Of a stretch of 62,072 bases of DNA, positions 10,273 through 38,883 are shown in pieces. A program made the translations under genes and the position numbers. Under the pieces are notes generated by a model that saw only the letters and a program-made list of their open reading frames with translations, ran no database searches and was not told the DNA's origin. Source of the DNA: Geobacteraceae bacterium (GTDB taxonomy: Bacteria; Desulfobacterota; Desulfuromonadia; Geobacterales; DSM-12255). The DNA lies in NCBI GenBank assembly GCA_013377075.1, contig JACABD010000002.1, positions 68,530 to 130,601 on the forward strand. Reading direction: 5' to 3'. The first letter of the stretch is position 1, and each line of letters begins with the position of its first letter.

Positions 10273-10349
10273 CGGTGCGTAGCGCAGCCTGGTAGCGCAC
10301 TAGACTGGGGGTCTAGTGGTCGCAAGTTCGAATCTTGTCGCACCGACCA
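10273..10349 (+). tRNA. tRNA-Pro (anticodon GGG)
   Basis: The full cloverleaf has acceptor CGGTGCG/CGCACCG, D arm GCGC/GCGC, anticodon stem CTAGA/TCTAG with loop CTGGGGG (canonical T33, anticodon GGG), and T arm GCAAG-TTCGAAT-CTTGT with one G-U pair. CCA is encoded at 10347-10349. It reads proline CCC/CCT codons. It lies 18 nt after the MerR gene and may be part of the same transcript; a strong terminator follows. Confidence 0.96.
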
Positions 10350-30110: not shown

Positions 30111-30764
30111 ATGAAAATATCTTTTCTGCGCCGCTTATGGGTTACACTCAGTATTTATGTTATCGGGTTTTATGCTTCATTTTTAAATCGCTTTGAAGTC
30201 AATGGTGTAGATAATATCCCGGGCAGTGGTGGTGTTCTCATTGCATCTAATCATATATCGGCTTATGAGACTATTTTCTTGCCTTGGGCTGTTATAGGTA
30301 GATTTTCTATGCAGATGTTGTGGGCCCCGGCTAAAGAGGAGCTTTTCAGAAATCGGCTATTGGGTTTTCTATACAAATCCTGGGGCGCTTTTCCTGTTAA
30401 CAGGGGACGCGATATTAAGGCTGCTCGACGAATTAATGATTTATTGAAGGATCAGAAGGTAATGATTTTCCCTGAAGGTACAAGGCACAAGAATGGTGCT
30501 CTTGGAAAGGGGAATAGAGGTGTTGGAAAGATAGTTTACGATACCAGACCAATTGTTATTCCAACTGCTTTAATTGGATTAAATTGTTGGAAATTTCCTC
30601 GATTACATCAGCACGGCAAGGCCGTTTTCGGGGAACCGGTTGACTTTACTGATCTATATCAACTAGTTGATAACAAAATTACTCATCAAATTATCACTGA
30701 CAGAATAATGGAGTCAATTGCAAGTTTATTGCGAAAAGAGGGAGCTTATGTCAACCCAGATTGA
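30111..30764 (+). CDS. 1-acyl-sn-glycerol-3-phosphate acyltransferase (PlsC family)
   Basis: 217 residues. A hydrophobic N-terminus is followed by SNHISAYE (HX4E in the place of the usual HX4D), [10 protein letters not shown] and the motif [10 protein letters not shown]. This is the PlsC layout, which acylates lysophosphatidic acid in phospholipid synthesis. The acidic residue of the first motif is Glu, which many members tolerate. GAGG lies before the ATG. rnhA starts 17 nt before its stop. Whether it is the housekeeping PlsC or a paralogue cannot be told. Confidence 0.85.
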
Positions 30765-35050: not shown

Positions 35051-37033
35051 ATGACGCTTTTAGTTATGAACAAGAAGGCAAAGTATTTGATCCTTGGAGT
35101 AATTCTAGGGATTGGGGCTCCACTAACATGGCTGTCGATAAAATCCATTTTCTTCCCTGAGCCCAACCATTCTCTTTCAGCCCAATTAATTCTAGAGTTA
35201 ACCTCATCCCCTGCAAATATCTCTTTATATCTTTTCATGGGTTTAGGCACCTCAATGGTAATGGGATTTCTTGGTTTCTTTATAGGCAAATCTGCCGACG
35301 AACTGTGTGATCGTGCCTTAGAGCTCGATTTTCTACATCAGGAGGTCAACGCACAAAAGGAACTATTTGAAAACCGTTATAAAATTCTTGATAACAACAT
35401 TAAGAATTTTCACCATATAAGCAGCCGGATTCAAAAATCAATGGAAGTTTCTCAAGTACTGTTGCTTTGTGCGGAAGGTCTCCATGAAATACTTGGATAT
35501 GAAAGAGTAAATATATTTACCGTAGACGAAGCAAGAGAAAATCTAAGGTTTATTATTTCAACAGGGGCTGAAGAAGATGTCAGGGGGCATAGAATCCCTC
35601 TTGATGAAAGAAGTGGAGTGATTTATAAGTGCTTTTCAGAAAAAAAGCTTTTCTTAGTCGATGACATTTCAAGATTTCCTGAGGATTTTCACTTAAAGCC
35701 CCCATGCAGTACAATCAAGGCAATAAGGTCTAATAACTTTATAATTTGTCCGCTTGTAATCAAAGGCGAAGCAGTTGGAGTATTCGGTATTGACAATAAA
35801 TACAGCAAACGTATTTTAAATGACACTGATGTTGATACAGTAAAACTCTTTGTTGATCAAGCATCATCAGCAATTACAAGAATAAACCTCCTTAAGGCAA
35901 TTGATACCCTTACTACAGAGCTTGAACGCTCTTTTTCTGAAATTCTGAGTCGGAGAGAGGAGTACTCTTCAAACATAATAACGCTCGAAGGTGCAGTATC
36001 ATCACTCTCTTCTACCACAAAGGATATTGCATCAGCGGCAGAAGCTGTTCTTGGATCTGTTGACGAAACGAGCAGATCAGTCGGAGAAATATCATTTGCT
36101 TTTGAAAATGTATCAGCAAATCTTGACTCATTGACAGAAGCAACCTACAAATCTGCATCAGCAATGGAAGAGATAAGTGCCTCTTTGAAAAATATAGAAG
36201 AGAGTGCTGTACTTTCGCACAAAATTTCCATGCAGGTTAAGAAACAGGCTGATGAAGGACATATTGTTGTCAGTGAGACTGCTGACGCGTTAACAGAGAT
36301 ACAGAAAGCAGTTGACTTCTCTCACAAGGGAATTATGCGACTTTCTGAGAATAGTACACGTATAGACAGTATTGTGAGTGTCATTAATGATATAACAAAG
36401 CGTACCAACCTTCTTGCCTTAAATGCCTCCATAATTGCTGCTCAGGCTGGTGAATATGGGAAAAGTTTCGGAGTTGTCGCAGATGAAATCAGAAATCTTT
36501 CTCTTCAGACAGGCCACTCTACTGGTGAAATAACAACAATTATCGAGGAAATTCTGCTCGAATCAAGAGCTGCAGCTGAAAACATTTCACATACCATGCT
36601 TCTGGTTCAAAAAGGGGTAGATTTAGGAGATAATACCGGAGAATCACTTAATACAATTATTGCTAGTGCCAACAAATCCATGGAAATGACCGAAGAGATT
36701 AAGCTTGCAACAAGAGAGCAGACCCATGGAATAGATCTTGTTACTAAGTCAATTGAAGATATAAGTTCCATGACTTCAAGAATATTCGCTGTATCCAAGG
36801 AACAAGCATTGGCGGCAAAAAATATTGCTAATGCAATCATAAATATCAGAAGCATGGCGCATGAGATGGTCGGCTCAACGTCTGAGCAGGTTCGTGGGAG
36901 CCGGGAAATTCGTAACTCTGTTGATGGTGTTGCAATGATGGTACATGACATATTTAGAGATCTGGAAAGCCGTAAGATTGAAAGTGCATCTGTTGTAAGC
37001 GAACTTGAAGTTATGAAGAGTGGATCAAGATAG
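35051..37033 (+). CDS. Methyl-accepting chemotaxis protein with a cytoplasmic GAF domain
   Basis: 660 residues. Two membrane segments (about 10-28 and 57-80) enclose only a short periplasmic loop, so sensing is probably by the cytoplasmic GAF domain at about 125-285 (VNIFTVDEARENLRFI, GVFGIDNKYSKRI). The signalling domain spans about 290-640; its hairpin tip reads ITKRTNLLALNASIIAAQAG then FGVVADEIRNLS. The tip has Ile and Gln where enteric receptors have Glu and Arg, a variant common in this group. No C-terminal CheR-binding pentapeptide is present. The start at 35051 has AAGGATA upstream; ATG at 35066 is an alternative. The ligand is unknown. Confidence 0.9.
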   Translation: MTLLVMNKKAKYLILGVILGIGAPLTWLSIKSIFFPEPNHSLSAQLILELTSSPANISLYLFMGLGTSMVMGFLGFFIGKSADELCDRALELDFLHQEVNAQKELFENRYKILDNNIKNFHHISSRIQKSMEVSQVLLLCAEGLHEILGYERVNIFTVDEARENLRFIISTGAEEDVRGHRIPLDERSGVIYKCFSEKKLFLVDDISRFPEDFHLKPPCSTIKAIRSNNFIICPLVIKGEAVGVFGIDNKYSKRILNDTDVDTVKLFVDQASSAITRINLLKAIDTLTTELERSFSEILSRREEYSSNIITLEGAVSSLSSTTKDIASAAEAVLGSVDETSRSVGEISFAFENVSANLDSLTEATYKSASAMEEISASLKNIEESAVLSHKISMQVKKQADEGHIVVSETADALTEIQKAVDFSHKGIMRLSENSTRIDSIVSVINDITKRTNLLALNASIIAAQAGEYGKSFGVVADEIRNLSLQTGHSTGEITTIIEEILLESRAAAENISHTMLLVQKGVDLGDNTGESLNTIIASANKSMEMTEEIKLATREQTHGIDLVTKSIEDISSMTSRIFAVSKEQALAAKNIANAIINIRSMAHEMVGSTSEQVRGSREIRNSVDGVAMMVHDIFRDLESRKIESASVVSELEVMKSGSR

Positions 37034-37212
37034 AATTTGCTCGACAAGCAGTGTTCCATGTGATAAATCAGCGGCATTAATGAGAGCATACTGCCTGGAT
37101 TCATAGTATTGAACCGGGACGGAAGGTGATAGCCGATACCATTTGCACAATTGTGCAATATTGTGTAAAAGCGCCTTTCATCCTTGGAAGGCGCTTTTTT
37201 CATGGAGTTAAC
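37034..37212 (+). promoter_or_regulatory. Structured 5' leader of panB with a 16-bp palindrome
   Basis: This 179-nt gap contains a small imperfect hairpin GGCA-tta-ATG-AGAG-CAT-ac-TGCC (about 37072-37094), a perfect 16-bp palindrome TTGCACAATTGTGCAA (37143-37158) and then the terminator at 37167-37200. The order resembles a cis-regulated leader. The position before panB is where the known pan RNA motif occurs in some bacteria, but I cannot confirm the consensus by eye. No convincing promoter was found. Confidence 0.45.
37167..37200 (+). terminator. Terminator-like hairpin just upstream of panB
   Basis: AAAAGCGCCTT (37167-37177) pairs with AAGGCGCTTTT (37188-37198), 10-nt loop, and ends in six T residues. 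It ends 12 nt before the panB GTG. It may end the chemoreceptor transcript or act as an attenuator for panBC. Confidence 0.8.
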
Positions 37213-38016
37213 GTGGTCAAACAAAAGAGTATTATTGACATCGGCAAAATGAAGGAGAGTGGCGAAAAGATAGCCATGCTCACCTGCTACGACTATCCTA
37301 CGGCACGGATAATGGATTCCTGCGGCGTTGACATGATTTTAGTGGGTGATTCGGCAGGGGTTGTTTTTGCAGGTTATGAAAATACCCTGCCGATAACCAT
37401 GGATGAAATGCTCTATCATGTAAAGGCGGTGATGCGTGCTCACCCGAAAGCATTGGTCATTGCTGATATGCCTTTTATGTCCTATCAGATTACCATTGCT
37501 GAAGCAAAACTTAACTCTGGTCGGATGATCAAGGAGGGTGGGGTTGCTGCCGTCAAGATTGAAGGGGGCGAGCCTATTTGTGACACCATAAAGGCCATTA
37601 CTGATATAGATATTCCTGTAATGGCGCATATCGGTCTTACACCACAATCTATCCATCGCATGGGTGGCTACAAGGTTCAAGGAAAGGGGAGTGAACAGGC
37701 TGAGCGGTTAATTGCCGATGCGCTTGCCGTTGAAAAAGCAGGAGCATTTGCCGTTGTTCTTGAAGGAATCCCACAGTCGCTTGCTGTACGGATTACCGAG
37801 TCGTTATCTATCCCGACCATTGGTATTGGTGCTGGGGCCGGTTGTGACGGCCAGGTGCTGGTAATACACGATATTCTTGGCCTTTGCGAAAAATATTCTC
37901 CAAAGTTTGTCAAACGTTATGCCGAATGCTCTCCTATAATCTCCGCAGCAGTCTCCGGTTATATATCCGATGTGAAAAGCAGCCGCTTTCCTGCTGCTGA
38001 ACATTCTTTCAACTGA
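37213..38016 (+). CDS. panB: 3-methyl-2-oxobutanoate hydroxymethyltransferase
   Basis: 267 residues, the usual PanB length. It adds the hydroxymethyl group from 5,10-methylene-THF to ketoisovalerate in pantothenate synthesis. TCYDYPTARIMD, VGDSAGVVFAGYENT, KIEGGE, AHIGLTPQS and GIGAGAGCDGQVLVIHD are all present with the Mg ligands. The start is GTG at 37213 with GGAG 5-9 nt upstream. A longer frame from 37126 would translate the palindrome and terminator and is rejected. panC follows after 12 nt. Confidence 0.95.
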   Translation: MVKQKSIIDIGKMKESGEKIAMLTCYDYPTARIMDSCGVDMILVGDSAGVVFAGYENTLPITMDEMLYHVKAVMRAHPKALVIADMPFMSYQITIAEAKLNSGRMIKEGGVAAVKIEGGEPICDTIKAITDIDIPVMAHIGLTPQSIHRMGGYKVQGKGSEQAERLIADALAVEKAGAFAVVLEGIPQSLAVRITESLSIPTIGIGAGAGCDGQVLVIHDILGLCEKYSPKFVKRYAECSPIISAAVSGYISDVKSSRFPAAEHSFN

Positions 38017-38028
38017 TAGTAAAGGTAT

Positions 38029-38883
38029 ATGATGCAAGTAATTGAATCTGTCAAAGATATGCAGACGTTTTCTGCCTCTGCAAAGAAACGTGGTACAGTC
38101 ATTGGTCTTGTGCCTACTATGGGCTATCTACACGCTGGTCACGGCTCACTGATGGTAGAGGGGCGTAAACTTTCTCAGCTTCTAGTTGCCAGCATCTTTG
38201 TTAATCCAACCCAATTCGGTATTGGCGAAGACTTCGAGAGTTATCCACGCAATCTGGATGGCGATCTTGCTATTGCTGCCAATGCCGGAGTAGATGTAGT
38301 CTTTGCGCCTAAAGCTGCCGAAATTTATCCCGATGGGTTCCAGAGCTATGTAAACACTGAAAAGATAACACTGCCGCTTTGTGGAGGCAGCAGGCCCGGT
38401 CATTTTCGCGGTGTGACGACCGTAGTTGCCAAACTCTTCAATATGGTACTTCCAGATATAGCTCTCTTTGGCAAGAAAGATTTCCAGCAACTTGCTGTTA
38501 TTCGCAGAATGACAATGGATCTCAACTTTCCGGTCAAGATCATCGGGATGCCCATTGTACGTGAGGCTGATGGTCTGGCGATGTCTTCACGAAATGCCTA
38601 TCTATCAACATCCGAACGCCAGGACGCCCTATGTCTCAAGAGCTGTATTGACCAGGCAAGGGCTGCATATCTATCGGGAGAGTGCTCAAGGACTGCACTG
38701 CAAACTGCTGCTCAATGGTTAATTGCAGCAGTTTCATCTGCAAAAATAGACTATATCGAGTTTTGTGACAGCAGAACCCTTGAAACTGTTGAGACTGTTG
38801 ACGAAAACACTCTGATGGCTCTTGCTGTCAGGGTAGGCAAGACCAGATTGATTGACAATACTGTTTTTGGTGAAAATCAGTGA
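38029..38883 (+). CDS. panC: Pantoate--beta-alanine ligase (pantothenate synthetase)
   Basis: 284 residues. The nucleotidylyl-transferase motifs [15 protein letters not shown] (HIGH-like) and [13 protein letters not shown] (KMSKS-like) are intact, as are FVNPTQFG and FGKKDFQQL. It joins pantoate and beta-alanine using ATP. Two ATGs in a row (38029, 38032) follow AAAGG; either could be used. It forms one unit with panB. panD and panE are not in the window. Confidence 0.96.

Follow-up and report, generated by a model that had tools for sequence, protein, structure and literature searches.

A minimal pan-motif leader ahead of panBC in a Geobacterales genome, with probable transcription attenuation

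We analyzed a 62,072-nt stretch of DNA (the window) from a 3.7-Mb draft genome of the order Geobacterales. The 179-nt leader between the end of a chemoreceptor gene (37033) and the GTG start codon of panB (37213), with panC, the other vitamin B5 gene, downstream of panB, was computed to contain the pan hairpin, which precedes panBC in relatives as well, an intrinsic terminator and a mutually exclusive antiterminator pairing; the latter is the new element of this analysis. Judging by its sequence, the leader is a real pan-motif leader of a minimal, one-hairpin form, and it probably controls panBC by transcription attenuation, being OFF when an effector holds the pan hairpin. The preliminary description of this DNA had already read it as a transcription-attenuation leader for panBC, which the conserved hairpin, the terminator and the exclusive antiterminator bear out computationally. 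The elements follow one another as a promoter-like stretch, a hairpin with bulged A residues, a mini-hairpin, a 16-bp palindrome and the terminator, at the following positions of the window.

35051-37033, + strand: GAF and MCP-signal chemoreceptor-like protein, the upstream neighbor, outside the switch (ORF; Pfam PF00015, PF13185/PF01590)
37041-37069, + strand: putative sigma-70 promoter, -35 TCGACA at 37041-37046, TG and -10 TAAATC at 37064-37069 (in register with the T(G/A)GACA promoters of relatives)
37091-37122, + strand: pan hairpin (hairpin 2 of RF01749), CUG CCUGG (A) UUC - loop - GAA CCGGG (A) CGG (RF01749, 28.2 bits; lineage model R1; pair counts)
37116-37128, + strand: proposed switching strand GGGACGGAAGGUG, the pan hairpin 3' strand and conserved tail (12 of its 13 nt complementary to 37172-37184; shuffles)
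37125-37134, + strand: mini-hairpin GGU GAUA GCC, which is GGC AAUA GCC in many relatives (alignment of 31 relatives)
37143-37158, no strand: perfect 16-bp palindrome TTGCACAATTGTGCAA; as RNA, a hairpin nested in the proposed antiterminator loop (sequence; folding)
37167-37200, + strand: intrinsic terminator AAAAGCGCCUUUC-AUCCUU-GGAAGGCGCUUUU and U run (folding; called in relatives)
37172-37184, + strand: proposed antiterminator partner CGCCUUUCAUCCU, the terminator 5' arm and loop (complementarity, folding)
37204-37207, + strand: Shine-Dalgarno GGAG of panB, 5 nt 5' of the GTG (sequence)
37213-38016, + strand: panB, ketopantoate hydroxymethyltransferase, GTG start (Pfam PF02548, E 9.3e-116)
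38029-38883, + strand: panC, pantoate-beta-alanine ligase (Pfam PF02569, E 3.2e-101)

The leader folded at -59.1 kcal/mol, whereas its dinucleotide shuffles averaged -43.2 (sd 4.2); this corresponds to z -3.8, and 0 of 200 shuffles were as good. The palindrome, imperfect hairpin and terminator described earlier were all located again in the 179 nt by sequence and folding; however, the hairpin does not follow the palindrome as had been stated but precedes it. The putative promoter, which would place the transcription start near 37076, was missed by a consensus promoter scan. In the whole-window scan, the only Rfam matches above the gathering score were an L20-Deltaproteobacteria ribosomal leader (RF03126, 5574-5638) and two tRNA genes (2696-2767 and 10273-10346). 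Sub-cut-off Rfam matches to snoR15, Atu_C9, PyrR, GibS, ncr1015, Ms_IGR-7 and sau-6072 were rejected as identities, being explained by the terminator or the palindrome.

The RF01749 model aligned at 37052-37126 with 28.2 bits in E-value mode, below its gathering score of 36.2. The cut-off was not reached because hairpin 1 is absent; the second RF01749 hairpin scarcely departs from the consensus and carries both bulged A residues (37099 and 37119). No second pan hairpin was found in the window leader, so that the tandem arrangement of most members, though not all (Weinberg et al. 2010, PMC2864571, in its passages on this motif), is absent, while the position in the 5' leader of panB, panC or panD is retained. 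The distance from the -35 element to the hairpin is 59 nt in the window versus 88-105 nt in 9 relatives, indicating that the whole block of hairpin 1 is lacking. A lineage covariance model (R1), covering the pan hairpin and mini-hairpin of 31 relatives with the window left out, scored the window leader at 57 bits (E 2.6e-13). The same model returned no second convincing copy in the whole genome, the next best match reaching 16.6 bits (E 0.8). The preliminary description had considered pan-motif membership and a check with Rfam models; the sub-threshold RF01749 match together with the window-free lineage model supports this assignment computationally. In the 31 relatives, 96.8% of cells in the mini-hairpin columns (37-46 of the alignment) were paired, and covariation inside the pan hairpin was thin (2 cells of 434).

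RF01749 matches were present in 10/13 genomes of the same family and in 107/141 genomes of the order, the source genome included, in a search with filters that lose weak matches. The cut-off was exceeded in 69/141 genomes and missed by 38 of the 107 that matched, indicating that it is strict for this lineage. In all 108 Geobacterales leaders fetched, that of the window among them, the panB start lies 84-410 nt 3' of the pan hairpin; the bulged A residues in 108/108 are no evidence, as the search pattern required them. A first pan-like hairpin was recognized in about 97 of the 108 leaders, and 11 were without it. This count combines 75 found by a bulged-A detector (shuffled controls, 3-10 of 108) with 22 judged by eye, since the detector was too strict and recognized hairpin 2 itself in only 38/108. 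In one genus (g19; L061, L092, L094, L104 and L109), hairpin 1 is replaced by another conserved hairpin, GAAGAGCCGC..GCGGCCUUUAAC, with one bulged A. Conserved structure among relatives, on which the earlier reading had been made to depend, was present.

The intrinsic terminator reported earlier was confirmed at 37167-37200, with a 13-bp stem and a 6-nt loop (37167-37198) and a U run to 37200, ending 12 nt 5' of panB. A terminator was called in 105/108 Geobacterales leaders (all except L006, L009 and L031) and in 31/31 further leaders, two of them apparently mis-assigned. L006 and L009, which belong to one genus (g4), have a terminator-like stem whose U run is not clear. A simple terminator scan reported three terminator-like sites in the window, within chance (shuffled mean 2.0); it called the palindrome terminator-like and left the real terminator unreported because the stem uses four of the six U residues. 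Across 29 leaders (L160 and L196 left out), the terminator 5' arm was less variable than the 3' arm, reading CCUUUC in 20, and the 3' arm had either A or G facing the U residues of the 5' arm, along with several mismatches there.

The 3' strand and tail of the pan hairpin, GGGACGGAAGG, are complementary to the terminator 5' arm and loop; therefore, the pan hairpin with the terminator and the antiterminator exclude each other. The antiterminator in the window has one C.A mismatch, and its duplex energy was -15.8, whereas shuffled halves of the terminator gave -8.9 (sd 2.4), 14/2000 being as good; shuffling preserves nothing but composition, and leaders that are related do not count as independent. 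In a transcript ending at 37184, the hairpin form (-31.1 kcal/mol) and the antiterminator form (-31.4 kcal/mol) were no more than equal, and from 37192 on the pan hairpin with the terminator was favored energetically. In the folded antiterminator form, the palindrome hairpin nests inside the antiterminator loop.

This conserved, mutually exclusive antiterminator was found in the window and in most lineages, but not in Geobacterales family 4 or in Paenibacillaceae. Complementarity exceeded each leader's own shuffles in 43/46 leaders of Geobacterales families 1-3, and folding of truncated transcripts made the antiterminator likelier than with shuffled terminators in 17/17 genera of these families and in 30/31 further leaders. 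Family 4 showed no clear excess of complementarity in the terminator (33/54 leaders above shuffles), and only 2/7 of its genera favored the antiterminator in truncated-transcript folding. The Geobacterales switch counts left out the three leaders without a called terminator and five with doubtful ones (L022, L086, L101, L105 and L106). When the best partner was searched anywhere downstream, it fell in the terminator 5' arm and loop in only 51/105 leaders, the misses being mostly from family 4. In family 4 (L012-L108), a UCCGUUC-like stretch complementary to the pan tail sits immediately 5' of the terminator instead of in its 5' arm, above shuffles in 44/54 leaders; by itself, this complement does not block the terminator.

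Outside the order, 297 genomes of Desulfobacterota were searched, 67 leaders were found and 62 were fetched. Complementarity was above shuffles in 55/57 leaders and in 23/24 families, and native pairs beat swapped ones over the 24 families (p 0.009 and 0.013; L236, L249, L250, L261 and L294 left out), with 8/24 families no better than with swapped terminators. We compared the loop base opposite GGACxG in 17 of the 55 leaders, taken for a C(A/G)G(U/C)(C/U) terminator loop, and found C-G in 8, U-A in 7, U.G in 1 and C.A in 1 (Fisher p 0.003), with both C-G and U-A occurring within families 14 and 70. Swaps between genera inside Geobacterales revealed no covariation (p 0.16 for all, 0.26 for families 1-3 and 1.0 for family 4). 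Covariation, which the preliminary description had proposed as a check, was thus seen in the loop base and the 24-family swaps but not in swaps inside Geobacterales, and it was thin in the pan hairpin. A contig pattern search returned 117 stretches. Many of them are chance matches, and panB or panC was matched in 42 of the 117; L172 among these lay on the wrong strand, and 10 Geobacterales leaders were dropped as duplicates. As that search fixed the pan tail, its 31 leaders cannot show tail covariation.

Beyond the phylum, RF01749 matches were found in 68/98 genomes from the family to which Paenibacillus faecis belongs and in 35/245 from the class that includes Acetivibrio mesophilus. In Clostridia, 12/13 leaders with a terminator were above shuffles (-14.0 vs -9.2), with a within-group swap p of 0.04; in 32 Paenibacillaceae leaders, complementarity at the terminator was no better than in shuffles (-8.9 vs -8.7). 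Twelve leaders read as translational, 4 truncated loci and 4 leaders without a terminator were left out of these comparisons. Some clostridial RF01749 hairpins lie directly 5' of the start codon of an ECF transporter S-component (L300, L303, L358 and L359; PF12822, four such proteins tested with Pfam), which is followed by a type III pantothenate kinase (PF03309) in L358 and L359. The hairpin tail there is CGGAGG or AGGAGG, and (A)CGGAGG is probably the Shine-Dalgarno of the ECF S-component. We tentatively extend this to the whole pan class, for which it is conceivable, though a good deal short of probable, that hairpin 2 supplies the switch with its 3' strand and tail, which would pair with the terminator before panB or panC or contain the Shine-Dalgarno of some clostridial ECF genes, in response to the same CoA-pathway signal, possibly CoA or pantothenate itself.

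In the window, we propose that RNA would be made from the promoter just behind the chemoreceptor gene and that the pan hairpin with its two bulged A residues would be the first element to fold. Before the terminator is complete, 37116-37128 would leave the pan hairpin and pair with 37172-37184, with the palindrome hairpin in between; panBC would be ON once this antiterminator has formed. An effector, either a CoA-pathway metabolite or a protein, would hold the pan hairpin, allowing the terminator to form ahead of panB and turning panBC OFF. We infer the promoter, the direction of control and the effector, both its existence and its nature.

The palindrome stood at the head of the preliminary description and was recovered, perfect over 16 bp, at 37143-37158, but it is the least conserved part of the leader. 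It is very improbable, indeed the least credible of the readings considered, that it acts as a DNA operator for a panBC repressor. A perfect 16-bp palindrome is expected in a given 179-nt leader with a chance of only about 0.0025, which speaks for an operator, but the 3.7-Mb genome holds just one exact copy and two with 2 mismatches, the palindrome sits downstream of the proposed promoter, and relatives carry other sequences and hairpins in its slot. Palindromes that are perfect over 16 bp number four in the window itself, where 40 shuffles averaged 0.85, the three others being at 30657, 42293 and 43495, and 42/100 shuffles held at least one match when 3 mismatches were allowed. A regulon operator was therefore rejected on copy number, window count and slot data. 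The slot hairpin had z -1.79 against shuffles in the window and a mean z of -1.79 over 100 leaders, 70 of which were below -1. The palindrome alone is weaker evidence than the leader fold. Its best interpretation is that of a spacer hairpin, occupying a slot in which the hairpin sequence varies. We also regard it as improbable that the terminator does no more than end the transcript of the chemoreceptor gene, with panB expressed by read-through and the hairpin a relic. The chemoreceptor gene ends at 37033, immediately before the leader, and the same neighbor was present in 33/35 other Geobacterales loci examined; however, 0/53 upstream regions outside the order matched this chemoreceptor, the leader and terminator are still there, and the pan hairpin is highly conserved. 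A panB promoter 3' of the terminator, the arrangement that would have told against the earlier reading, did not appear, as the stretch from 37200 to the GTG codon (37213) has no room for one. The terminator may also serve the chemoreceptor transcript in Geobacterales, where the synteny of this GAF-MCP gene with panB is conserved.

It is unlikely, though less so than either of these readings, that the pan hairpin binds a dimeric protein acting on RNA polymerase, stability or translation, with a plain terminator, read-through and no antiterminator. Weinberg et al. (2010, PMC2864571), in the part describing the motif, proposed a dimeric protein-binding motif, and family 4 and Paenibacillaceae lack an antiterminator at the expected place. 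However, complementarity to the terminator loop and covariation with it are seen in the other lineages, and the single pan hairpin of the window fits a tandem dimer site poorly. Attenuation through the switching strand thus remains the preferred reading.

The pan RNA motif was described in 2010 with its effector left unknown and no mechanism given in the sections devoted to it (PMC2864571). No mechanism for pan RNAs was found in the literature searched, although the supplementary files accompanying Weinberg et al. (2010) may mention one. The window leader resembles the motif as presented in those sections in its two-bulged-A hairpin, its GGGAC-GAAGG tail, its place in the 5' leader of panB or panC and its occurrence in Deltaproteobacteria; it differs in having one hairpin instead of the usual tandem and a score below the Rfam cut-off, and in the terminator and proposed antiterminator added here, which those sections do not mention. 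The named switching strand makes the mechanism of pan RNAs directly testable, and the natural one-hairpin variant is a convenient minimal test piece. According to the relevant section of a 2022 review, no riboswitch is known for coenzyme A (PMC9971707); should the signal turn out to be a CoA-pathway metabolite, this gap in the riboswitch field would be filled.

Like the RF03126 leader in the same window, the panBC leader is a lineage-specific structured leader, although RF03126 is unrelated in sequence and gene and scores above its Rfam cut-off. Terminator/antiterminator leaders of Bacillus, such as those of trp (TRAP) and PyrR, work through a 5' element that either releases the antiterminator strand or keeps it blocked, ahead of an intrinsic terminator. 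The window leader shares with these systems the alternative hairpins ahead of an intrinsic terminator; unlike the trp leader, it has no (G/U)AG repeats, and unlike a PyrR leader, it scores 27.6 with the PyrR covariance model against a cut-off of 54.
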